From: a virus
DNA length: 20,568 nt
Direction: 5' to 3' (one strand)
IMG/VR virus record: IMGVR_UViG_3300023116_003268
Coordinates: 1-20,568 of that record
Shown here: positions 2,390 to 13,303 of the stretch, piece after piece
How the letters are laid out: every line of letters starts with the position of its first letter
Numbering within the stretch: the stretch's first letter is position 1
The notes under the pieces: generated by a model
What the model saw: only the letters and a program-made list of their open reading frames with translations
Database searches by the model: none
What the model was told of the DNA's origin: nothing
Translations under genes and position numbers: made by a program

Positions 2390-2401
2390 AGAGTGTATAT
2401 T
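2373..2401 (+). promoter_or_regulatory. Sigma70-like promoter predicted to give a leaderless uvsE message
   Basis: TTGACA (2373-2378) and TATATT (2396-2401) are spaced 17 bases apart, at the very end of the glycosyltransferase gene. Counting the last -10 base as -7 puts +1 at 2408, the A of the ATG of the UV endonuclease gene. No Shine-Dalgarno sequence sits at a normal distance from that ATG, which fits a leaderless transcript. Confidence 0.6.
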
Positions 2402-2407
2402 AAAACA

Positions 2408-3496
2408 ATGAAAAATATCCAACGCATAGGCTTTGCATGCAAATACATGCATCCAGACCAAACGCAGAAGAAAAAACTGCTGGAGGAAATCCAGCGGCCA
2501 CTAAATACCCGTAGCACAACAGTACAGTGGCTCAATAGACAAACACGTGATGTTGCCGAACAACGACTGTGGGACATCATGGTGCATAACATACAGTCGT
2601 ATTACAACCTTATAAAATACGTAGGAGGATTACCTAATGCTTTACGAATGGTTAGATTGGGGAGTGATGTACTTCCTGTATTCACTGAGCCTACTTGGTG
2701 TTATTATTGGCAACGTCCTGATGTGGTCCGATATTGTGAGGAGCATTTCGCAAGGGTCGGCGCCCTCGCTAGGTCGCTTGATGTCAGGCTCAGTATGCAT
2801 CCTGGTCAGTTTACTGTGCTGGCAAGTGATAATGATGATATAGTAGAGAGATCAATTGAGGAATTTGAGTATCACATCAACGTTGCGAGGTGGATGGGCT
2901 ATGGCGTTAATTGGCAAGACTTCAAGTGTAACGTCCACATCTCAGGACGCAGAGGTCCAGCCGGTATCATCAACGCACTTCAACGATTGTCTCCAGAAGC
3001 AAGAAACTGCATTACTATTGAAAACGACGAAAACAAGTGGGGACTCGACGCAAGTCTCGAACTTGCCGAACATGTCGCACTCGTACTTGACATACACCAT
3101 CACTGGTGCCGTGAAGGAGAATACATTCGTCCCACCGACGATAGATTTGCTCGCGTGATTGATAGTTGGCGTGGTGTGCGCCCTGTGATTCATTACAGTG
3201 TTAGTCGAGAGGATCTAATTGGCAATTATCCTACTAATATGCGCCCTAACATGGACTCTCTGTTAGAAGCAGGCTACAAAAAAGCAAAACTGCGAGCGCA
3301 CAGTGATTATATGTGGAATAATGCTGTTAACGATTGGGCATTAGAGTTTTTACCTTATGCAGACATTATGGTAGAATCTAAATGTAAAAACTTGGCTAGT
3401 ATTGCACTACATAAATACAGTATGGAGAAGAACAATGAACTATTTGAACAAGATGTACGGCAGAAACAAGCCGGACCAGACCCAATCATTATCTAA
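2408..3496 (+). CDS. uvsE: UV damage endonuclease (UVDE/UvsE family)
   Basis: A 362-residue TIM-barrel-type UV damage endonuclease, which nicks DNA 5' to pyrimidine dimers and other lesions in a metal-dependent, light-independent repair pathway. Signature elements are present in family order: 'RIGFAC' (6-11), 'RLSMHPGQF' (127-135), 'ENDEN' (205-209), 'LDIHHHW' (227-233), 'IHYS' (261-264), 'HSDYMW' (298-303) and 'IMVESKCKN' (320-328). These supply the expected His, Glu and Asp metal ligands, so the enzyme looks intact. I chose ATG 2408 because family members begin near RIG; a GTG at 2393 would add five residues. The middle of the gene is richer in G+C (for example 2761-2820, about 55%) than neighbouring genes. 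The last 62 bases overlap the next gene in another frame, giving a non-family tail after residue 337. Confidence 0.93.
   Translation: MKNIQRIGFACKYMHPDQTQKKKLLEEIQRPLNTRSTTVQWLNRQTRDVAEQRLWDIMVHNIQSYYNLIKYVGGLPNALRMVRLGSDVLPVFTEPTWCYYWQRPDVVRYCEEHFARVGALARSLDVRLSMHPGQFTVLASDNDDIVERSIEEFEYHINVARWMGYGVNWQDFKCNVHISGRRGPAGIINALQRLSPEARNCITIENDENKWGLDASLELAEHVALVLDIHHHWCREGEYIRPTDDRFARVIDSWRGVRPVIHYSVSREDLIGNYPTNMRPNMDSLLEAGYKKAKLRAHSDYMWNNAVNDWALEFLPYADIMVESKCKNLASIALHKYSMEKNNELFEQDVRQKQAGPDPIII
3410..3417 (+). promoter_or_regulatory. Possible late promoter (CATAAATA) inside uvsE
   Basis: CATAAATA matches the core of T4-type late promoters (TATAAATA) and differs by one base from the GATAAATA found four times downstream. 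Its last A is 18 bases before ATG 3435, close to the 19-20 base spacing of those sites. The predicted RNA would start near 3424, directly at the GGAG ribosome site. It lies in uvsE coding sequence, so chance is possible. Confidence 0.45.
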
Positions 3497-3692: not shown

Positions 3693-3846
3693 GAAATGGG
3701 TAGATACTCGTATTAAAGAGCGCACATCATGGGACGGCATAGTTCTTATAGGAGCAGGTCTTGCCATGCTACTAGCACCAACTAATATTATTGGTTTAGG
3801 CTGTATTGCTTACGGTGCCTGGACTATTTGGAAAAAAGAAGATTAG
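3685..3846 (+). CDS. 53-residue single-helix membrane protein
   Basis: Sequence begins MIKKWVDTRIKERTSWDG and continues with one hydrophobic segment (about residues 19-47, rich in Gly, Ala, Leu and Ile), ending in WKKED. A charged N-terminal helix, a single or hairpin-like membrane segment and a short charged tail are clear. It resembles short conserved membrane proteins of marine T4-like phages that have no assigned function. The ATG overlaps the stop of the coiled-coil gene (ATGATTAA), so it is probably translated by coupling. Its TAG (3844-3846) overlaps the stop codon of the convergent minus-strand gene, leaving no room for a separate terminator between them. Confidence 0.75.
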   Translation: MIKKWVDTRIKERTSWDGIVLIGAGLAMLLAPTNIIGLGCIAYGAWTIWKKED

Positions 3847-4130
3847 AGTTTACCAATAGGGATGTCAGAACTAGCAGAAAAATTCCATTTCTGCTTTTGT
3901 TCTACACCCTTTTTTTGTGCAAATTTCTTACTATCACAGTTCTTACACACGTGAAAGTAGGAATTAGATAATCTTTTTGGATCCATATTACCTCTTTGTC
4001 TTTCAAATTGTTGATCACAGTTGTCGCATCTTAGCATAACCATGGTTATATACCTTGTGTAGTTATGTACCTTACCTAATTTGCTAGTTCTCGTGTGTTC
4101 TTTTTTAACAGTGTATTCTTTTAAAAACAT
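3843..4130 (-). CDS. Small zinc-ribbon protein on the opposite strand
   Basis: A 95-residue protein, the only convincing minus-strand gene here. It has C35-x2-C38 and C62-x2-C65, separated by 23 residues, in a context (LRCDNCDQQFERQRG and HVCKNCDSKKFAQKKG) typical of a zinc ribbon or knuckle. The surrounding residues are strongly basic, which fits nucleic-acid binding. The N-terminal 30 residues (EYTVKKEHTRTSKLGK) are also basic. I recognise it only as a conserved hypothetical type in T4-like phages, sometimes likened to zinc-binding parts of HNH proteins; no HNH catalytic motif is present. It converges with the 53-residue gene and is divergent from the Fe-S carrier gene. A TATAAT on the minus strand lies just upstream. 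No strong ribosome site is visible. Confidence 0.75.
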   Translation of the reverse strand: MFLKEYTVKKEHTRTSKLGKVHNYTRYITMVMLRCDNCDQQFERQRGNMDPKRLSNSYFHVCKNCDSKKFAQKKGVEQKQKWNFSASSDIPIGKL

Positions 4131-4148
4131 AATTATATTTACATTAAG

Positions 4149-4154
4149 ATTATA
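4149..4154 (-). promoter_or_regulatory. Possible -10 box for the minus-strand zinc-ribbon gene
   Basis: The reverse strand reads TATAAT at 4154-4149, 18 bases before the start codon at 4130. No recognisable -35 box lies at 16-18 bases spacing, so this is a weak call. It sits between the two divergent starts and beside the late promoter of the Fe-S carrier gene. Confidence 0.3.
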
Positions 4155-4162
4155 AAACGATA

Positions 4163-4171
4163 CGATAAATA
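4163..4171 (+). promoter_or_regulatory. T4-type late promoter CGATAAATA
   Basis: CGATAAATA with a final A 19 bases before ATG 4190. The core ATAAATA is that of T4 late promoters, read by host polymerase with the phage sliding clamp and gp55-type sigma. The predicted start near 4178 leaves only AAGGAG and a short spacer before the ATG. It opens the long virion block. Confidence 0.75.
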
Positions 4172-4189
4172 CTCATATAAGGAGCAAAA

Positions 4190-4543
4190 ATGAGCTTGAT
4201 TACAGTTACTCCCCAGGCAAATAGCCAAATTGGAAAACTTTGTGAAGAAAACAAGTGCTATGCAATAACACTTAATATCAAAGGCGGAGGATGTGCTGGA
4301 TTCGAATACGAATGGGGTGTTTCACAACAAGAAGAAATAGATAAACATGATTTTATCGTTACTTGTGATGAAGGCAACTTTGTTGTAGGAGCTCATAGTT
4401 TGATGTTCTTAGCAGGATCTGAAATAGATTATGTTAAATCTATTATAGGATCACAATTTGAAATAAAAAATCCTAATGCTCAAAGTAGCTGCGGGTGCGG
4501 AGTTAGTGTAAACTTTGACATGGATAGAATTCCAAATTTATAA
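4190..4543 (+). CDS. A-type iron-sulfur carrier (IscA/ErpA/HesB-like)
   Basis: A 117-residue protein, the usual length for A-type carriers, which bind and pass on Fe-S clusters or iron. The three signature cysteines are present: C35 in 'GGGCAGFEY' (32-40) and C101 and C103 in 'SSCGCGVS'. Other family marks are the start 'ITVTPQA' and 'LAGSEIDYV' before a GSQFEIKNPNA strand. It should therefore be competent to bind a cluster. The gene has a strong AAGGAG (4179-4184) and its own late promoter, and lies 15 bases before the giant fibre gene. Its expression with virion genes suggests a late role: assembling a metal centre in a virion protein, or serving host metabolism late in infection. The sequence does not decide. 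Confidence 0.92.
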   Translation: MSLITVTPQANSQIGKLCEENKCYAITLNIKGGGCAGFEYEWGVSQQEEIDKHDFIVTCDEGNFVVGAHSLMFLAGSEIDYVKSIIGSQFEIKNPNAQSSCGCGVSVNFDMDRIPNL

Positions 4544-4558
4544 ACGGAGCAAAATTAA

Positions 4559-7500
4559 ATGGCAAAACAAGAAGTAGATATTGGTGTTGAGGGCAATGAC
4601 GGCACAGGCGATAGTATTCGCGAGTCGTTTCGCAAAGTAAATGAAAACTTTACAGAACTTTATGCTGTCTTTGGACAAGAAGGCAGTCTAAGTTTTCTTT
4701 CATTAGGTGACACTCCAGAAGCTTTTGCTGATAATAAAATTGTTACAACAAATGCTACTGGAGATGCAATAATATTTTCTAGTATTACATCAACAGATGG
4801 CACTATTGGTGTTGACTTAATATCAAATCCTGGAAACATTGACCTAACTGTTACAGCCATTGAAATTGTCCAAGACACTGTTGCTCCGACTTTAGGTGGA
4901 CATTTGAGTGGTGAAGGAATTTTTGCAATCGGTGGCGTTGCTATTAGTGAGGCAGCGGCTGCTGCTCTAAGTAATCAGCCTGGTAGAGCAGAAATTTATA
5001 CAATAGATGATCTTGTAATTACCAAAGGCTATGCAGACAGAAGATATATCACAAGTGGCTTACCTATTCGTGTTGCAGAAGAACCAGCAAGTGCTGAAGG
5101 ATTTACTAAAACAATAGATTTTTACAATGGAGACGGTCATTTAGTATTTTCTAGCGGACATGGATTTGACAGTGGTGTAAACGGAACTCCATATATTTTC
5201 AATGCTGAAGATACAGATCCGACAAACTTAACTACTGGCACTACATACTATATTAGATACGAATCAGATACAGAACTTTCAGTATTCTTAGACAGAGTCT
5301 ACGCAGAAGCTGAAAGTGATTCTTTTGCAGAGCCTTTCAAAGTTGTTGTTTCAGGTGCTATTGCTGCTGACGATACTCACACTATAACTGATGCTGCTTA
5401 TGATGACAGCCTTGAAGGTAACTTCTTAAGTGATGTAGCAATGCCTCGTAAGAGTGTTGTGCGTAGAACAGGCGACACAATGACCGGTACTTTGACACTA
5501 AGTGATCATCCAGGCGACTTAGCAGGGTCTGGAACTCCAAATGGTCAAAGTGATTTACAAGCTGCTACAAAATTTTATGTAGACAATACTGCGTATAGTT
5601 CTCCAGAAGTACTATTTGTTAGCACAGCAGGTGACGATACAATGCAAGGAGTGCCATTTGGCAAGGAAGGTACAGCAAATACATATGCGTTTAGATCTGT
5701 AAATGCAGCAGCTAGAAGAGCAGCAGAAATTATAGAAACTGCTCCAGAAGAACCAGGACCTTATTTTCAAACACTGAGTTATGGTGCAACACCTATCACA
5801 GCAGGGACAGCAGCACAAGTAACAGCAGGCGGAGTAGAAAGTGCTGTTAATACAGGCACAAGGAACATCCTTGGAAACAATAGAAAGTTCTTACAAAAAG
5901 AAGTTATAGGGTACATTGCATTTACATATCCTGATTTTGCTTACAATGTTGAGTTGTGTGAAAGGGATTTAGGATTAATAATAGATGCTGTAGGATTTGA
6001 CGCAACTAGAGGTGATACTGCAAACTTTTTATCAAGACAGGCAGCTAGAAGATATTACTCCAGCGTGAGTGGCAGAATTGCAATTACATCCCAATTAGAA
6101 AGAACAGATGATAGTTTTGCTAAACTGGGCGAGTTTATTCAGGCTGTATTAACAAACAGCCTTTTCAATCCAAAAACAGTAACAGCAATTACAAAGAAAT
6201 CCGGTGATAATCCTGCGGTTGTTACAACAAGTACAGCACACAACTTGTCAGACGGCAATCAAATTATTTTTAAAACAGTGTCAGGCATGACTCAAATTAT
6301 TGATGAAATAATTTATGTCAAAAAGATTACAGATACTACAGTAGAATTGTTTACAGATTCTACATTATCGACACCTTATGATAACAGTTCTTATACAACA
6401 TTTGTAAATGATGGATCAGCACAGATTGGTGTAAGATACCAATCAAAGTTTGACCAGGACACAAGCATTTCAGCTCTTTCTCCTACAGACAATGGTTATA
6501 TTGCAGTCACACAAAACATTAATTTAATTAGAAATATCATCAAGAATGGCATCAATGCAGGTGCAGACATTGCATATGGTAATAGATATCAATTAATAAC
6601 TGATAACAGCAGTGCAGGGGAACTTGACCAAACTAACCCTGACAACGTTGATGCACTGCCAGGTAAAGTTATCAGAGGTAAACGTAGTGGTGCAATAGGT
6701 AGAATTATCACCTACACACAAAATACAGGTGGTACTACTTTCTTCCTTCAACCACTAGAAGCAAAAGACTTTGAGGCGGGAGAAGAATTAGAACTAGGAA
6801 ATTATGTAAATGCAAAACAAGTAGTTATACGTGTAGAAGCAGGTATTTACGAAGAAGACTATCCTATTAAATTATCAAGAAACGTATCGCTCAAAGGTGA
6901 CGAATTTAGACGTGTTATTATTCGTCCTAAAAGAAGAGTTTCTCAGTCCACATGGGCTGATACCTATTTTTATAGAGACAAAGAATTTGACGGTAATACT
7001 CTACTAACCACTGGTACGCCATTTATTAACCAAGTTGGACAAACCCAAGGCTATTTTGGTAGACACTATTTATTAGACAATACGAAAGCCCTTAACGTAG
7101 GTAATGCTATTAACAATTTAGGAAAGTATAATAAAGCCGCAGAAGTACTCAAATTAAATAGAGAATTTATCCAAGCAGAAGTTGGCGAATATGCAGATGC
7201 AACCTATCCTACACTATTTTCTATTGTAAGCAGAGCAAAATGCGAAAGAGACGTAGGACTAATTGTTGATGCTTTGGTAAACGATTTACAACGTGGAGGC
7301 GAAGAAGCTACACTAGAAGCACAAGGGGAATACTATGCAGGCGCACTTACTCCAGGTACAGAAGCAGAAACTGCTGATTCGATTGCACAAATATCTTCTA
7401 TAGCAGCAGATTTACTTGCAGGCGTTGACCCAGCAGGAAGCGGATTTAACAGAGGATCAGTAGACGTAGATCTTACCCAAGGCATTGTGGAACCTGCGTG

Positions 7501-10500
7501 GTCAGCTGGTACAGATTATGCCCAAGGTGATTTTGTTAAAACTACTAGAGGTGTTACTAATTTCTATTATAGGGCATTAGTTTCACATACTGCTGAAGCA
7601 AGTGATCAAGATGTTGGTGGCAGCAATGACCAAGAATTAACAAACACCAATCGTTGGATAGCAGTTACAAGCAGCACCGAACAGGTTGGAGACTTAGTAG
7701 ACAAAGTCAACTTTGCATTTGACTCTAACTATAATCCACCTAAGCGTAATGATGATGACGGTGTTGATGTCTTTATGATGGACGATGCTACTATTGTTAG
7801 AAACGTCACTGTGCAAGGTCACGGTGGCTTTATGTGTGTGCTTGATCCAGTAGGACAAGTATTGACTAAGTCACCTTACATACAAACAGCTACTAGTTTT
7901 TCTAGATCACGTAATGCAAAAGCATTTACAGGAGGCATGTTTGTAGATGCATTCTGCGGAAATATTCCTATGCGAGTATTAGGAAACTCTGGAAACAGTT
8001 CTACTTTTGGAATTACTGGAAGTAACGTAACATTAGATGCGTTTACACTTGTAGTAGAGTCCTTAGATGTAGGAGGCGAACCACAAGGATTGAAACTGCG
8101 TTTACCACAGTTACCTGCACCTTTCTATTTTGATGGTATTAGATACCAAGTAAATGCAATATCAAACTATGACAGCGGAACAGGTAAAGCAGTATTGTAT
8201 CTAGATCCAAGTTCGGGCAATGACCTAGGTTGGAACAAGGCAGGCGCAGATAATGTTGGTGATCCAGGCCATGATGTTAATGATATTATACAAGACATTT
8301 TTTTACAAACTGCTGGTAACAGATCTATTTTAGGTAACGACTTTACACAAATTAACGATTTAGGATATGGACTTGTAACTACAAATGGTGCATTTTCAGA
8401 AATGGTTAGTATGTTTACATACTATACCCATGCTGCTTATTATGCAGCTAACGGTTCTGAAATACGTTCGCTTAATGGTTCCAATGGTTATGGTAACTTT
8501 GGTTTAGTTGCTGAAGGTGCTGACCCCAACGAAATACCAGACGAAGTTACAACACTTAAAAATATGGTGCAGCCTATTAAAGCATTTACCTATAGTGGTT
8601 TCACAAATGCTTCAGGTGACACAACAATAACTGTTTATGATTTCAAAGAAGCACCGATGTCAAACAGTTACATTTATATAGATCATGGCGGTGCAGTAGG
8701 ACCACTTAACTATAGAATCAGCAGAGTTGAAAACCTAGCAGATCCAAATGGCGGCGGTATTGGTGGTTTCGGTAAGGGCGGAGCTGTTATTGCAACAGGT
8801 GTAGAGTCTGTTAACAATGCAAGTATTACAGGTACAATACCTTCAGTAACAAGTACTTTCTTAAATGTTAAACAAAAGAGCACTTCAGGTAGTGGTGTTG
8901 GTGCAGAATTTACAATAGCAGTTACAGCAGGCACACCTAACACAGCATTGTTTACTGTTACTGACGTAGGCTATGGATACACTGCGGGAGATACAATTAC
9001 AATTGACGGTGCAGATATTGGTGGTGTATCTTCAACCAATGACCTTACTATACCAGTTACTTTAGCTTATGGTACAACACAAGGTACATATGTTGCTGCA
9101 CAAAAATCAGGCAGTATTTCAGCTATAACACAGGCAAATCCTGTAGTAGTAACTAGCACAGGACACACACTTACAAATGGTGAGAAAGTTTATTTCTCAG
9201 GCATAAGTGGTATGAATAATCTTAATACAGAATCATATTGGGTAGGCAACGTTACTGCAAACACATTTGAACTGTACACTAATGCAAGTTTAACTGTTCC
9301 ATTAAATGGATTGACTTTTGGTGCTTATACAAGTGGCGGTACATTCGAAACAAGCGGCGGCATAGGAAATCATGTATATAGATTAAGTTTACAAGAAGCC
9401 GGAAGTAATATCGATTATTATGGCGAACTACAAGATACTGTAACAAATAATACACTTATAGAATATAGACATGGCGAAAACTTTATATTTACAGGTGTTG
9501 CCGATTCTGAAGGGATTACTGAAAGACCAAGTACTGCTGTAAACTTTGATGAAAGTGACCTTGCTACATATAGAAGCACAGGCTTTACTCGATCAGATGA
9601 TCAAAATCAATCTTTGGGTTCTGACGAAATTAGAGCTACCTTTGATGCAACATTTGGATTTGAAGAATTAACTGTTAAATTTGCAAAACTTACAACTACT
9701 GACCCAGATAATGGAGCAAAAACATTAGGGTCATTAGTAGGCGATACTAAAATTGCGATTGAAGCAATTAATGACGCAGATATAGAAACTAGACTAGTTA
9801 CAGATGCGACAGATGCAACTAGTCAAACATTATTGCAGCCTGGAGATCCTGGTTACACAGGTGGTATGATATTTACTCATCAAGGTAAAACATTCCAAAT
9901 TATAGATTATCAACCAGTAGACTATGGTACGATTACTGGTGCAACACAAGCTGATCCAGTTGTAGTGTCAAGCACGGGTCATGGGTTAAGCAATGGTGAC
10001 GGTATAACTATTCGTAATGTAGGTGGTATGACTAATCTAAACGGTAACACCTTTTATGTAGGCAATGTAACTGCAAACACATTCGAACTTTATAGTGATA
10101 GCGCAATAACTAATACAATAGACGGCACAGGATATAATGCATATACCAGCGGAGGTCAATGGGTTGATGATGAAAGTGCTTGGTACATAGAAGTACAGGA
10201 TTATCAAGCCGATGGCGCAGATTGGGACATTACAGGATCTGCTGCAAACACTGGTATAAAAACAGCATTTACGAAAGAACAAAGTTTATTCGCAGGACTA
10301 CAAATTGGTACCACAGCTGAAATTACAATTAGTATTTCATTGTGTCGTGCTACAGGTCATGACTTTACACAAATTGGTACAGGCGGATTTAACACATCTA
10401 ACTATCCTAATGTGCTTTTAGGTAGACCTACAGAAGATAAAGCACCTGCATATAGTGATGAAGACAATGCAAGTAAAGCTCAGGTATGGGAGCGAAGAAA

Positions 10501-13303
10501 AGGTAGAGTGTTCTTTATCAGCTCAGACGAAAACGGATTCTTCCGTGTAGGTAAGTATTTTGTTGTCGACCAAGCAACAGGTAGTATTACATTCTCAGGC
10601 GAAGTAGGTATTTCAAGAGCAGCATCTCTAGGATTTAAAGACGGTGTTGTTATTAGCGAATTCTCAAATGACGAACTGTTTACTGATCTAAGTGACACAG
10701 CAGTACCTACAGAAAAAGCAATTGCAAACTATGTTAGTAGAAGATTAGGTCATAATGGATCTATACAATTAACTGGTAGTTCTAGATTTGATCCAGGATT
10801 TATGGCTCTAGATGGTTCCACAAAAATGGAAGCCAATATGAATATGAATAGTAATAAAATTACTAATCTTCTAGATCCAACTGATGATAACGATGCTGCT
10901 ACAAAAGATTATGTTGTACAAGCAACTACTAGTTACGATGAAATAGACGATCTAAGAAACGTGCTAATCCATGATAGGAACGGTACAGGGTTGGAACAAA
11001 AACAATTATTTGTTCCAACAGGATACAAGCGTTTAGTTGTCGATCCGTTAATAGGCACAATTGCAGACGGCGATACATTAAATGATGGCTCAAGCACTGC
11101 AACTGTAATTGCTACAGAAACTAGATTTGACTACGTTGAAAATAAAAACGTGCAAATTATAACCTACGATTTATTAACTGGGGCAGGTTTCAATACAACT
11201 CTAACTCCTGTTTACGTAGGACCAGGCGGTAGTCCGACTGCAACTGCTACTGTTTTAGAAAATCCAATAGACGAATTTGCAAATGCAAGTGAAAAAACTA
11301 CTAGTGATATTAATATAACAATTAGTAGAAGCTCTAGTGCGCCTTATACAGAGGTAGATCTACAGATAGAAGCACAGGCAATTCTAAACAGTGACGTTAA
11401 CGATGATGCAGAAATATCACAAGCTAAATTGTTAATGAATCGAGCAAAGCCTCTTTCAAGTAGTACAGGGTTGTATGGTACAGATGGAGATGCAGGAAGC
11501 ATAGGAGAAGGTGATCCTGATGGTACTGGTAGAACAGGACAAAGTTCCAGAGGTTTGGCAGCATTCGAATATGATAGTTTTGCTGAAGATGTACAACTTA
11601 CAGTTACTACAGCGAATATTACAGCAGATGCAGGAGATATACTTTACCAAGGTGATCCAAGCACAGGCACAAAACCAACTGGCTATGTTGTTAATTCTGT
11701 AATTAACCAACCCATAGTTATTATTAGAACAAGTGATGTTTGGGTTGATGACGAAACTACTCCTATTTACAAATCAACTGTTACAAATGGCGTAGCTGGA
11801 ACTGCTACAAATATTTCAAGTACAGTGTTTTCAGGAGGCTATCTAAGATCTGGCTACATCAATCTAAAAGACAGAGGTGTTGCATTTGAAAAGCTCCCTA
11901 ATTTGACTGGTGGAAACTTAGGCGATGACTATGGTGGTAGTGCTATAGGTAGAGCAACAGACGGCAACGGTGCTGCTGAAGAAGTTTCATTCGCAACAAT
12001 CATAGACCAAGGTAGAGGTTTAGCAGACAGTGATTTTGGAACAGAAAGAGCTTATTACAGCAATCCTCCTACAAATACTATTGTAAATGACCCAGGTGAT
12101 GTATTAATACAATATGGTACTCCAGGTGACGGTAACTACGCTTATACCAACATAGCGTATGATAACAGTAATAACTCTATTGCAAAACGAGACATCAATG
12201 GTAAAATACAGGCAACTGGTTATATTATTGGCGGTGTAAGTACACAGGAAATTTTGTCAGAAAGTTCTGGAACACTAAGTTTCAAAACTCCAGCACAAGG
12301 TACAATACTTACTGCAAGTGGAGCTACTAAGCCTACTTTAAACACAGGCGGTGCAATACGTGTAGGTGACATAGCAGCATATAGCGAAAGTAACTTACAT
12401 GCTGCTAGTGATTTTGGTACTTCAGGAGGCTCAACTGAAACATCTGCACTAGCTGCTCGTTGGATTTATAGTTCGTTTATAGAAGCACCAGATGAAAAAG
12501 ATGCAACAGGAACTGGTGTCGGTATTGGTGCAGGTATTGGTAAGACACTTGCTACTGCTGATACTATAACCTTTATAACAGGCGGTAACGTTGAAGCTAG
12601 GGTTACAACAACAGGTGTTGAAACAGATGATATAAGAAGTATAAGCACTAATACAAATCTAACACTCAGTGGTAATGGTACAGGTATAGTATATGTTAAT
12701 GATAATTTAGATGTTAACGGTACATTTAGTGCAACTTCACTAGAAGCAGACAACATTAGTTCTGAAAGTTCAAATACAGATCTTACATTGAGCGGTAAAG
12801 GAACTGGTGTTGTGTATGTAAGTGATACACTTAAAACCACATCCATAACCACAGGGGCTGCTGCAACAGCAGGTACAATCACAGGAAACTGGACTCTTAC
12901 AACAGGAAGTAAATTTGAGGCAACATATGCTGACTTGGCAGAATACTATGAAGCTGATGTAGAATATGAAGTAGGTACTGTTGTAATATTTGGTGGAGAA
13001 AAAGAAATTACAAGCAGCAAGGAACACCGTTCTACTAGAGTTGCAGGTGTTGTTTCAGAAAACCCAGCCTATGTCATGAACGCAGAATGTCCAGGTATAG
13101 CAACTGCTATTGCATTGCAAGGTCGTGTTCCGGTTAAAGTAATTGGAAAAGTACGCAAAGGTGATATGCTTGTAGCAAGTGCAATACCGGGCTACGCAAT
13201 GGTTGATGCAGAACCTAAAGTTGGTAGTGTCATTGGTAAGGCTGTTGGTGAAAAACTAGACGGTGACAAAGGCATAGTAGAAGTTGTGGTAGGTAGATTG
13301 TAA
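4559..13303 (+). CDS. Giant 2914-residue tail fibre / virion surface protein
   Basis: One uninterrupted frame fills 43% of the window. N-terminus: a docking-type motif 'NDGTGDSIRESFRKVNENF' (13-31) shared with two other fibre genes here. Later parts: 'GDTMTGTLTL' and 'ATKFYVDN'; two copies of a CERD-type repeat (447-487, 872-914); beta-helix-like 'DYPIKLSRNVSLKGDEFRRV' near 765-785; a GDFVKT/W-rich module near 979-1040 that resembles a small carbohydrate-binding module; 'MMDDATIVRNVTVQGHGGF' near 1073-1091, a conserved element of marine phage fibres; and three FCCH-like modules (541-624, 1518-1597, 1789-1870). The last 125 residues, from 'YADLAEYYEADVEYEVGTVV', resemble C-terminal Peptidase_G2-type chaperone or self-cleavage domains. 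ACGGAG precedes the ATG. It likely recognises the host; the exact tail position is unknown. Confidence 0.9.
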   Translation: MAKQEVDIGVEGNDGTGDSIRESFRKVNENFTELYAVFGQEGSLSFLSLGDTPEAFADNKIVTTNATGDAIIFSSITSTDGTIGVDLISNPGNIDLTVTAIEIVQDTVAPTLGGHLSGEGIFAIGGVAISEAAAAALSNQPGRAEIYTIDDLVITKGYADRRYITSGLPIRVAEEPASAEGFTKTIDFYNGDGHLVFSSGHGFDSGVNGTPYIFNAEDTDPTNLTTGTTYYIRYESDTELSVFLDRVYAEAESDSFAEPFKVVVSGAIAADDTHTITDAAYDDSLEGNFLSDVAMPRKSVVRRTGDTMTGTLTLSDHPGDLAGSGTPNGQSDLQAATKFYVDNTAYSSPEVLFVSTAGDDTMQGVPFGKEGTANTYAFRSVNAAARRAAEIIETAPEEPGPYFQTLSYGATPITAGTAAQVTAGGVESAVNTGTRNILGNNRKFLQKEVIGYIAFTYPDFAYNVELCERDLGLIIDAVGFDATRGDTANFLSRQAARRYYSSVSGRIAITSQLERTDDSFAKLGEFIQAVLTNSLFNPKTVTAITKKSGDNPAVVTTSTAHNLSDGNQIIFKTVSGMTQIIDEIIYVKKITDTTVELFTDSTLSTPYDNSSYTTFVNDGSAQIGVRYQSKFDQDTSISALSPTDNGYIAVTQNINLIRNIIKNGINAGADIAYGNRYQLITDNSSAGELDQTNPDNVDALPGKVIRGKRSGAIGRIITYTQNTGGTTFFLQPLEAKDFEAGEELELGNYVNAKQVVIRVEAGIYEEDYPIKLSRNVSLKGDEFRRVIIRPKRRVSQSTWADTYFYRDKEFDGNTLLTTGTPFINQVGQTQGYFGRHYLLDNTKALNVGNAINNLGKYNKAAEVLKLNREFIQAEVGEYADATYPTLFSIVSRAKCERDVGLIVDALVNDLQRGGEEATLEAQGEYYAGALTPGTEAETADSIAQISSIAADLLAGVDPAGSGFNRGSVDVDLTQGIVEPAWSAGTDYAQGDFVKTTRGVTNFYYRALVSHTAEASDQDVGGSNDQELTNTNRWIAVTSSTEQVGDLVDKVNFAFDSNYNPPKRNDDDGVDVFMMDDATIVRNVTVQGHGGFMCVLDPVGQVLTKSPYIQTATSFSRSRNAKAFTGGMFVDAFCGNIPMRVLGNSGNSSTFGITGSNVTLDAFTLVVESLDVGGEPQGLKLRLPQLPAPFYFDGIRYQVNAISNYDSGTGKAVLYLDPSSGNDLGWNKAGADNVGDPGHDVNDIIQDIFLQTAGNRSILGNDFTQINDLGYGLVTTNGAFSEMVSMFTYYTHAAYYAANGSEIRSLNGSNGYGNFGLVAEGADPNEIPDEVTTLKNMVQPIKAFTYSGFTNASGDTTITVYDFKEAPMSNSYIYIDHGGAVGPLNYRISRVENLADPNGGGIGGFGKGGAVIATGVESVNNASITGTIPSVTSTFLNVKQKSTSGSGVGAEFTIAVTAGTPNTALFTVTDVGYGYTAGDTITIDGADIGGVSSTNDLTIPVTLAYGTTQGTYVAAQKSGSISAITQANPVVVTSTGHTLTNGEKVYFSGISGMNNLNTESYWVGNVTANTFELYTNASLTVPLNGLTFGAYTSGGTFETSGGIGNHVYRLSLQEAGSNIDYYGELQDTVTNNTLIEYRHGENFIFTGVADSEGITERPSTAVNFDESDLATYRSTGFTRSDDQNQSLGSDEIRATFDATFGFEELTVKFAKLTTTDPDNGAKTLGSLVGDTKIAIEAINDADIETRLVTDATDATSQTLLQPGDPGYTGGMIFTHQGKTFQIIDYQPVDYGTITGATQADPVVVSSTGHGLSNGDGITIRNVGGMTNLNGNTFYVGNVTANTFELYSDSAITNTIDGTGYNAYTSGGQWVDDESAWYIEVQDYQADGADWDITGSAANTGIKTAFTKEQSLFAGLQIGTTAEITISISLCRATGHDFTQIGTGGFNTSNYPNVLLGRPTEDKAPAYSDEDNASKAQVWERRKGRVFFISSDENGFFRVGKYFVVDQATGSITFSGEVGISRAASLGFKDGVVISEFSNDELFTDLSDTAVPTEKAIANYVSRRLGHNGSIQLTGSSRFDPGFMALDGSTKMEANMNMNSNKITNLLDPTDDNDAATKDYVVQATTSYDEIDDLRNVLIHDRNGTGLEQKQLFVPTGYKRLVVDPLIGTIADGDTLNDGSSTATVIATETRFDYVENKNVQIITYDLLTGAGFNTTLTPVYVGPGGSPTATATVLENPIDEFANASEKTTSDINITISRSSSAPYTEVDLQIEAQAILNSDVNDDAEISQAKLLMNRAKPLSSSTGLYGTDGDAGSIGEGDPDGTGRTGQSSRGLAAFEYDSFAEDVQLTVTTANITADAGDILYQGDPSTGTKPTGYVVNSVINQPIVIIRTSDVWVDDETTPIYKSTVTNGVAGTATNISSTVFSGGYLRSGYINLKDRGVAFEKLPNLTGGNLGDDYGGSAIGRATDGNGAAEEVSFATIIDQGRGLADSDFGTERAYYSNPPTNTIVNDPGDVLIQYGTPGDGNYAYTNIAYDNSNNSIAKRDINGKIQATGYIIGGVSTQEILSESSGTLSFKTPAQGTILTASGATKPTLNTGGAIRVGDIAAYSESNLHAASDFGTSGGSTETSALAARWIYSSFIEAPDEKDATGTGVGIGAGIGKTLATADTITFITGGNVEARVTTTGVETDDIRSISTNTNLTLSGNGTGIVYVNDNLDVNGTFSATSLEADNISSESSNTDLTLSGKGTGVVYVSDTLKTTSITTGAAATAGTITGNWTLTTGSKFEATYADLAEYYEADVEYEVGTVVIFGGEKEITSSKEHRSTRVAGVVSENPAYVMNAECPGIATAIALQGRVPVKVIGKVRKGDMLVASAIPGYAMVDAEPKVGSVIGKAVGEKLDGDKGIVEVVVGRL
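5897..6020 (+). repeat. CERD-type internal repeat, copy 1 (giant fibre)
   Basis: Encodes a segment with EV-x2-Y-x4-TYP, then 'CERDLGLIIDAVGFDATRG'. The second copy at 7171-7300 has the same order of EV, Y, TYP, CERD, GLI, DA and RG. The copies are about 425 residues apart, on either side of the beta-helix-like region. This is protein-level repetition; the DNA has diverged. Confidence 0.7.
6178..6430 (+). repeat. FCCH-like beta module, copy 1 (giant fibre)
   Basis: Encodes roughly residues 541-624: 'AITKKSGDNPAVVTTSTAHN' followed by 'LSDGNQIIF', 'VSGMTQI' and 'TTVELFTDS'. This is the most divergent of three copies of a module of about 80 residues. It resembles the E1 FCCH domain often annotated in phage fibre proteins. 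Confidence 0.65.
7171..7300 (+). repeat. CERD-type internal repeat, copy 2 (giant fibre)
   Basis: Encodes 'QAEVGEY', 'TYPTLFSIVSRAKCERDVGL' and 'IVDALVNDLQRGG'. It matches copy 1 at 5897-6020 in motif order and spacing up to the RG pair, then diverges. Confidence 0.7.
9111..9350 (+). repeat. FCCH-like beta module, copy 2 (giant fibre)
   Basis: Encodes about residues 1518-1597: 'ISAITQANPVVVTSTGH', 'LTNGEKVYFSGISGMNNLN', 'VGNVTANTFELY', 'AYTSGGTF'. It is closely related to copy 3; the 12-residue 'VGNVTANTFELY' is identical in both. Confidence 0.8.
9924..10167 (+). repeat. FCCH-like beta module, copy 3 (giant fibre)
   Basis: Encodes about residues 1789-1870: 'ITGATQADPVVVSSTGHG', 'LSNGDGITIRNVGGMTNLN', 'VGNVTANTFELY', 'AYTSGGQW'. 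The similarity with copy 2 points to duplication or recombination within the gene or with another fibre gene. Confidence 0.8.
12652..12831 (+). repeat. Tandem LTLSGxGTG repeat before the C-terminal domain
   Basis: Two tandem units 120 bases (40 residues) apart, encoding 'TNLTLSGNGTGIVYVNDNL' and 'TDLTLSGKGTGVVYVSDTL'. They lead into the C-terminal domain that begins near 12926, and probably form a repetitive beta stalk. Confidence 0.75.

Follow-up and report, generated by a model that had tools for sequence, protein, structure and literature searches.

A predicted A-type iron-sulfur carrier gene between a putative late promoter and the giant tail fibre gene of uncultured marine phages

Introduction

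Iron-sulfur (Fe-S) genes of phages have so far been read as metabolic boosters, and iron in tails has been proposed for marine phages. The closest described systems are the following.

Viral A-type Fe-S carriers are described in the accessible text of three reports (PMC5332604, PMC9038755, PMC10580990) as marine, partly T4-like, accompanied by radical-SAM and other Fe-S genes, and auxiliary metabolic in function; the first of these gives one T4-like genome that has 12 radical-SAM genes besides its A-type carrier (Nishimura 2017, PMC5332604). Tail proteins that bind iron or an Fe-S cluster themselves are, according to the available parts of the sources, lambda gpL with a 4Fe-4S cluster (PMC10721106) and the T4 gp37 fibre tip and P2 gpV spike with iron (PMC5175280). 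The host recognition cluster of pelagi- and cyanomyophages is presented in the accessible text of another report as a plastic region that holds tail fibres, glycosyltransferases and radical-SAM cassettes (PMC7029224).

The window analysed here, that is the whole stretch of 20,568 bases, is a virus record from an uncultured marine phage. It holds a predicted A-type carrier gene directly upstream of a giant tail fibre gene, and in the following we describe this arrangement, its conservation and the putative clients of the carrier.

Anatomy of the carrier gene and its transcription unit

The locus consists of the following features of the window:

Positions 3843 to 4130, minus strand: divergent gene of a 95-amino-acid protein that has two CxxC pairs and looks like a zinc ribbon by eye (weak match to PHROG 8829), bordering the other side of the carrier slot.
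Positions 4163 to 4171, plus strand: putative late promoter CGATAAATA, of the T4/cyanophage NATAAATA type, called from the motif and from a like motif at similar distance in relatives.
Positions 4179 to 4184, plus strand: ribosome-binding site AAGGAG, read directly.
Positions 4190 to 4543, plus strand: predicted A-type Fe-S carrier (IscA/ErpA/SufA superfamily) of 117 amino acids with C35, C101 and C103, called from profiles, an AlphaFold2 model, and structural and sequence matches.
Positions 4544 to 4558, plus strand: gap of 15 nt with GGAG at 4546-4549 and without a promoter of its own, read directly.
Positions 4559 to 13303, plus strand: giant tail fibre of 2,914 amino acids, second gene of the putative late unit, called from PHROG tail fibre families, with an opening MAKQEVDIGVEGNDGTGDSIRESFRKVNENF common to relatives.

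The open reading frame of the carrier starts at 4190 and closes with a stop codon at 4541-4543. In profile searches the protein scored 54.9 bits against PF01521 (cut-off 26.3) and 89.9 bits against TIGR00049 (cut-off 58.8), and it stayed under the NCBIfam equivalog cut-offs for ErpA (87.3 of 117 bits), SufA (74.9 of 136.2 bits) and IscA (62.1 of 150.6 bits). The AlphaFold2 model had a pLDDT of 86.1, its best structural matches being IscA (1x0g, E-value 2.8e-9) and SufA (2d2a, E-value 3.5e-8), and HI1723, IscA and SufA were the sequence matches. All three cluster cysteines are present at positions 35, 101 and 103, as had been stated in the first-pass annotation of this DNA. The protein can be classed from these data as a member of the A-type Fe-S family with the IscA/HesB fold, for which cluster transfer is predicted.

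The motif NATAAATA is given as the late promoter of cyanomyoviruses in the accessible text of PMC2984593. By itself the core ATAAATA shows no enrichment in the window, with 6 occurrences versus 9.7 expected. The extended motif CGATAAATA occurs four times, always on the plus strand, versus 0.21 expected, and none of 1000 shuffles reached four, an enrichment figure that is somewhat flattering since the motif was extended only once the sites were known. These four sites start 27 to 28 nt 5' of the ATGs at 4190, 13435, 15337 and 18134, and the carrier shows the spacing of a T4-type late gene, with NATAAATA about 25 to 30 nt before the start. All five ATAAATA cores on the plus strand of the window lie 24 to 26 nt 5' of an ATG; the fifth, at 3411-3417, stands 24 nt ahead of a small conserved gene with its ATG at 3435.

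A CGATAAATA-type site was not found in the window sequence before the fibre ATG at 4559, which suggests that carrier and fibre share one late transcript. Among the matches listed, the late core was found upstream of 58 of the 64 distinct fibre-linked carriers versus 38 of 548 other plus-strand genes, before none of the 26 fibre genes counted after a carrier, and before one of three carriers followed by a gene with a GNGESR motif. The late promoter and the distance of 15 bases to the fibre gene that the first-pass annotation had reported were both recovered (promoter site at 4163-4171, end of the carrier at 4543), and its proposal that the carrier is made with virion proteins gains support from the promoter pattern, which points to co-transcription with the fibre.

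Conservation of the carrier and fibre pair

Scans of viral contigs yielded 93 carrier loci, which together with the window make 94 rows. The carrier-side loci (best 80 of at least 558) and the fibre-side loci (best 80 of at least 544, searched with the fibre head, alignment A2) were chosen by similarity to the query. The locus sets include near-duplicates, most records are fragments, and the scripted gene calls are mechanical.

Among the matches listed, the giant fibre was the next plus-strand gene in 75 of the 94 carrier rows (74 by pattern and L092 by eye), the others being followed by a PAAR gene (11), a GNGESR-motif gene (3), or another gene or none (5). The gap between carrier and fibre was at most 26 nt in 74 of these 75 rows and 363 nt in L082. 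From the fibre side (best 80 of at least 544), a carrier homologue stood at most 60 nt upstream in 56 loci and beyond one gene in 10, this intervening gene being the antiparallel CxxC protein each time; none was found in 14, among them L228, L231 and L286 with less than 900 nt of upstream sequence. In the same 80 loci, a late core at most 70 nt before the fibre itself was present in 0 of 56 fibres adjoining a carrier, 10 of 10 with the intervening gene and 14 of 14 without a carrier, that is, in all 24 fibres that lack a directly adjoining carrier. Six carrier-less loci were read out, and four of them (L227, L271, L285 and L287) had an otherwise window-like neighbourhood, including the UvdE-like and divergent CxxC genes. 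Because these loci resemble the window otherwise and the promoter shifts to the fibre, the carrier is an optional cassette that sits between the late promoter and the fibre gene.

Conservation of the gene pair, which the first-pass annotation had put forward as a check, thus holds for the majority on both the carrier side (75/94) and the fibre side (56/80), whereas a position away from the fibre in relatives, which it had regarded as evidence against its proposal, is confined to a minority (19 of the 94 carrier rows and 14 of the 80 fibre loci, all among the matches listed). Carriers away from fibre genes are found in L394-L396. Records G033 and G035, where the fibre has no adjoining carrier, have carriers far off, two of them in G035, and G054 holds, besides its fibre-side carrier, an Nfu-IscU-IscA group assigned by eye.

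The four cysteines of the divergent CxxC protein are kept in 59 of 59 clustered relatives; its gene adjoins the fibre with or without the carrier and has no late core. Upstream of the fibre unit the window also encodes a PTPS/QueD-type enzyme (1102-1581, PF01242) and a UvdE endonuclease (2393-3496, PF03851). Among isolates, tblastn in a phage collection gave 11 weak matches at 37.5% identity or less, with no close relative, and no isolate matched the window fibre over more than 10% coverage.

Evolution of the carrier

All 136 distinct viral carrier rows, a set that excludes fragments and one further row, have C35, Y40, C101 and C103; this invariance, together with that of family and fold, argues for selection on the cluster site. 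The dN/dS ratio was 0.03 to 0.18 in ten pairs of carrier relatives (five including the window), with synonymous changes near saturation; the carrier evolves under purifying selection.

An iron chaperone, a sensor or a virion passenger, in which the three-cysteine site holds iron in another manner or the protein is packaged, would likewise show invariant cysteines and Y40 and would agree with the putative expression alongside virion genes. However, family reading frames do not exceed 190 amino acids among the 54 matches listed, with neither a fusion to a virion protein nor a regulator-like extension, and we regard this explanation as highly improbable.

Identity between fibre-adjoining carriers goes down to 30%, and their identity to the window to 35%, which suggests that the slot is old. 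A strict single clade of fibre-linked carriers was rejected (p-AU 1e-45), as was a single clade of all 84 kept viral rows, with the set-aside rows excluded (1e-9); the grouping became acceptable (p 0.585) once three rows had been added that come from phage contigs catalogued as cellular. That the carrier arrived at the fibre several times independently was considered, and the claim was dropped because the carrier tree, built from 120 columns, is weak and compatible with grouping. Loci L095, L096, L097 and L099 are filed under bacterial MAGs and have phage genes around the carrier by eye; the next best match in the cellular collection, L098, has 40% identity.

Tail proteins as putative metal clients

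The first-pass annotation had suggested that the carrier helps to put metal into a fibre or baseplate protein. In the wider form of this explanation, the late-made carrier would equip a tail protein, for example fibre, hub or spike tip, with iron or an Fe-S cluster. The putative transcript common to carrier and fibre and the conserved pairing are in keeping with it, as are the carriers that lie 9 nt before a PAAR spike-tip gene in a second group (11 of the 94 rows, among the matches listed), the carrier of L097 that follows a gp5-type hub-like gene (by eye), and the precedents of lambda, T4 and P2.

None of the six cysteines of the window fibre is invariant among 49 relatives; the best kept are C467 (41/49), C895 (31/43) and C1929 (36/49), while H1934 is found in 49/49. 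Carrier-less fibres in the same place keep C467 in 12 of 13 cases and C895 more rarely, in 6 of 11; for fibres beside a carrier the figures are 44 of 52 and 32 of 39 (p=0.10 for C895). The fibre cysteines were rejected as ligands, none being invariant and the two best covered being without significant dependence on the carrier. HxH motifs are absent from the window fibre, which rules out HxH iron sites there, and a single one is present in 9 of 59 long fibres. The window fibre thus has neither the four conserved cysteines of a lambda gpL-type site nor the HxH motifs of a T4 gp37-type iron site. With regard to other late products, neighbour families of at least ten members with a late core in more than half hold at most one conserved cysteine each, the carrier apart. 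In the UvdE-like family three cysteine columns are conserved, and 5 of 53 members have a late core.

As to the PAAR-type group, PF05488 scored L013 above its cut-off (34.2 bits) and L007 below it (21.2 bits). None of seven PAAR-type carriers had a late promoter, and 24 of 30 PAAR loci had no carrier in the stretch covered; in L177, L178, L180, L181 and L182 a PhoH gene directly precedes PAAR and the carrier is absent. Within 20 fibre-type records, PAAR was detected in G006 and G014 at E<=0.1, and in G024 below the cut-off. PAAR was rejected as client, given the close relatives that lack a carrier between PhoH and PAAR and its rarity in fibre-type records.

In L005-L015 (e.g., L013, 7373-8032), PhoH, carrier and PAAR stand in a row, and the nearest PAAR relatives lack the carrier; PhoH calls beyond L007 were made by eye.

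Since both fibre and PAAR occur without the carrier and no fibre cysteine is invariant, these data speak against either as an obligate client, although a virion client elsewhere would be possible. Metal loading of the fibre as originally proposed is not borne out, and virion metallation in its wider form appears distinctly unlikely. A phage carrier dedicated to virion assembly is in our estimate quite improbable; with it, uncultured marine T4-like phages would complete the iron or Fe-S site of a still unrecognised tail protein (hub, spike tip or fibre) and so keep tail metallation under their own control.

Fe-S enzymes in the phage genomes

Ten carrier records, all longer than 120 kb, were scored for radical-SAM matches (E<=0.001), with counts of 18 (G001), 9 (G006), 13 (G014), 4 (G015), 7 (G035), 9 (G045), 4 (G046), 5 (G065), 2 (G066) and 2 (G067), those of G066 and G067 being below the family cut-off only. 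The six isolates without PF01521 had two (Mosig), one (HTVC008M) or none (P-SSM2, S-CAM1, S-SSM7 and S-CAM3), a difference with a Mann-Whitney p of 9e-4 in which lineage is not controlled. No radical-SAM match was found in two carrier records, G026 (103 kb) and G044 (84 kb), and the carrier-less records G059, G062, G042 and G043 have one or two. Of 27 records searched, 2 had IscU and 5 had Nfu.

In twelve stretches, a late core preceded one of 62 radical-SAM-like genes chosen by CxxxCxxC (four of 62 when the head of a run is counted) and 10 of 228 genes overall, which indicates that the putative radical-SAM clients and the carrier stand under different promoters.

Several gene clusters were also observed in these records. 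In G035 (L298, 4920-7012, minus strand) two IscA-type genes flank a 463-amino-acid IscU with an intein-like insert, followed by DnaJ- and ClpB-like genes. In G054 (L299) Nfu, IscU and IscA-type genes are clustered at 3845-5810, and a uroporphyrinogen decarboxylase-like gene (HemE) lies at 8670-9650; the names and the insert in both loci were assigned by eye. Dense radical-SAM runs (L397-L400) occur in G047 (1-28500) and G014 (166000-191000), with 13 in the 74-kb and 13 in the 358-kb record.

Putative function of the carrier

A late carrier could sustain host Fe-S enzymes, such as those of respiration and isoprenoid synthesis, without any phage client. The general role of ErpA-type carriers counts for such host-directed repair, as do the late promoter and the lack of a late phage client among the neighbour families; the excess of radical-SAM genes in carrier records and the phage IscU and Nfu suggest, however, that there are phage clients too, and repair directed to the host alone is unlikely.

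The best fit is a late Fe-S carrier that serves enzymes of both phage and host, which we hold to be moderately probable. Anatomy, conservation and promoter shift suggest that an optional A-type carrier cassette set between late promoter and giant fibre would yield a single late message. The source of the clusters would be the ISC/SUF scaffold of the host or, where present, phage IscU or Nfu, and the carrier would pass them on to apo-enzymes, namely phage radical-SAM proteins and host enzymes, at a time when Fe-S demand may be high while host synthesis is failing. The fibre would not be required as a client; it would provide a strong late transcript and may sit in a plastic host-recognition region where such genes gather. 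A role in metabolism, the fallback of the first-pass annotation, fits better than metal loading of the fibre, with the radical-SAM excess in carrier records in its favour.

Against service to enzymes stands the apparent promoter mismatch, with the late core before 1/62 radical-SAM-like genes versus 58/64 fibre-linked carriers. The records in which a carrier and radical-SAM matches do not go together (G026 and G044, and G059, G062, G042 and G043) count against it as well. Moreover, a mere parking place would leave unexplained why carriers at 30-35% identity have retained the slot.

In phages that have diverged widely, the locus puts an Fe-S gene in a fixed place and apparently under the control of virion genes, ownership of the promoter shifts with carrier presence, and the question arises of a late-stage phage need for Fe-S delivery. 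Were the client a virion protein, this would directly connect phage tails with the Fe-S assembly of the cell, and with the idea that they carry iron in the sea.

Comparison with known systems

The window carrier has family profiles, the three cysteines and the fold in common with bacterial IscA, SufA and ErpA; unlike these, it is phage-borne, has a putative late promoter and adjoins a fibre gene rather than lying in an isc or suf operon. The window fibre differs from lambda gpL, T4 gp37 and P2 gpV in having neither a four-cysteine site nor HxH. Like the host recognition cluster of PMC7029224, the window has fibres and glycosyltransferase-like genes (named by eye); the main text of that report, as far as accessible, gave no hit for iron, Fe-S, sufA or HesB. 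Late promoters or a position adjoining a fibre, as in the window, are not described for the carriers in the accessible text of PMC5332604, PMC9038755 and PMC10580990, and no report of a late, fibre-linked slot of an A-type carrier was recognised in the available text of the open-licence literature. Viral A-type carriers in the company of many radical-SAM genes were thus already known, and it is the late, fibre-linked slot of the window and its relatives that appears to be new.
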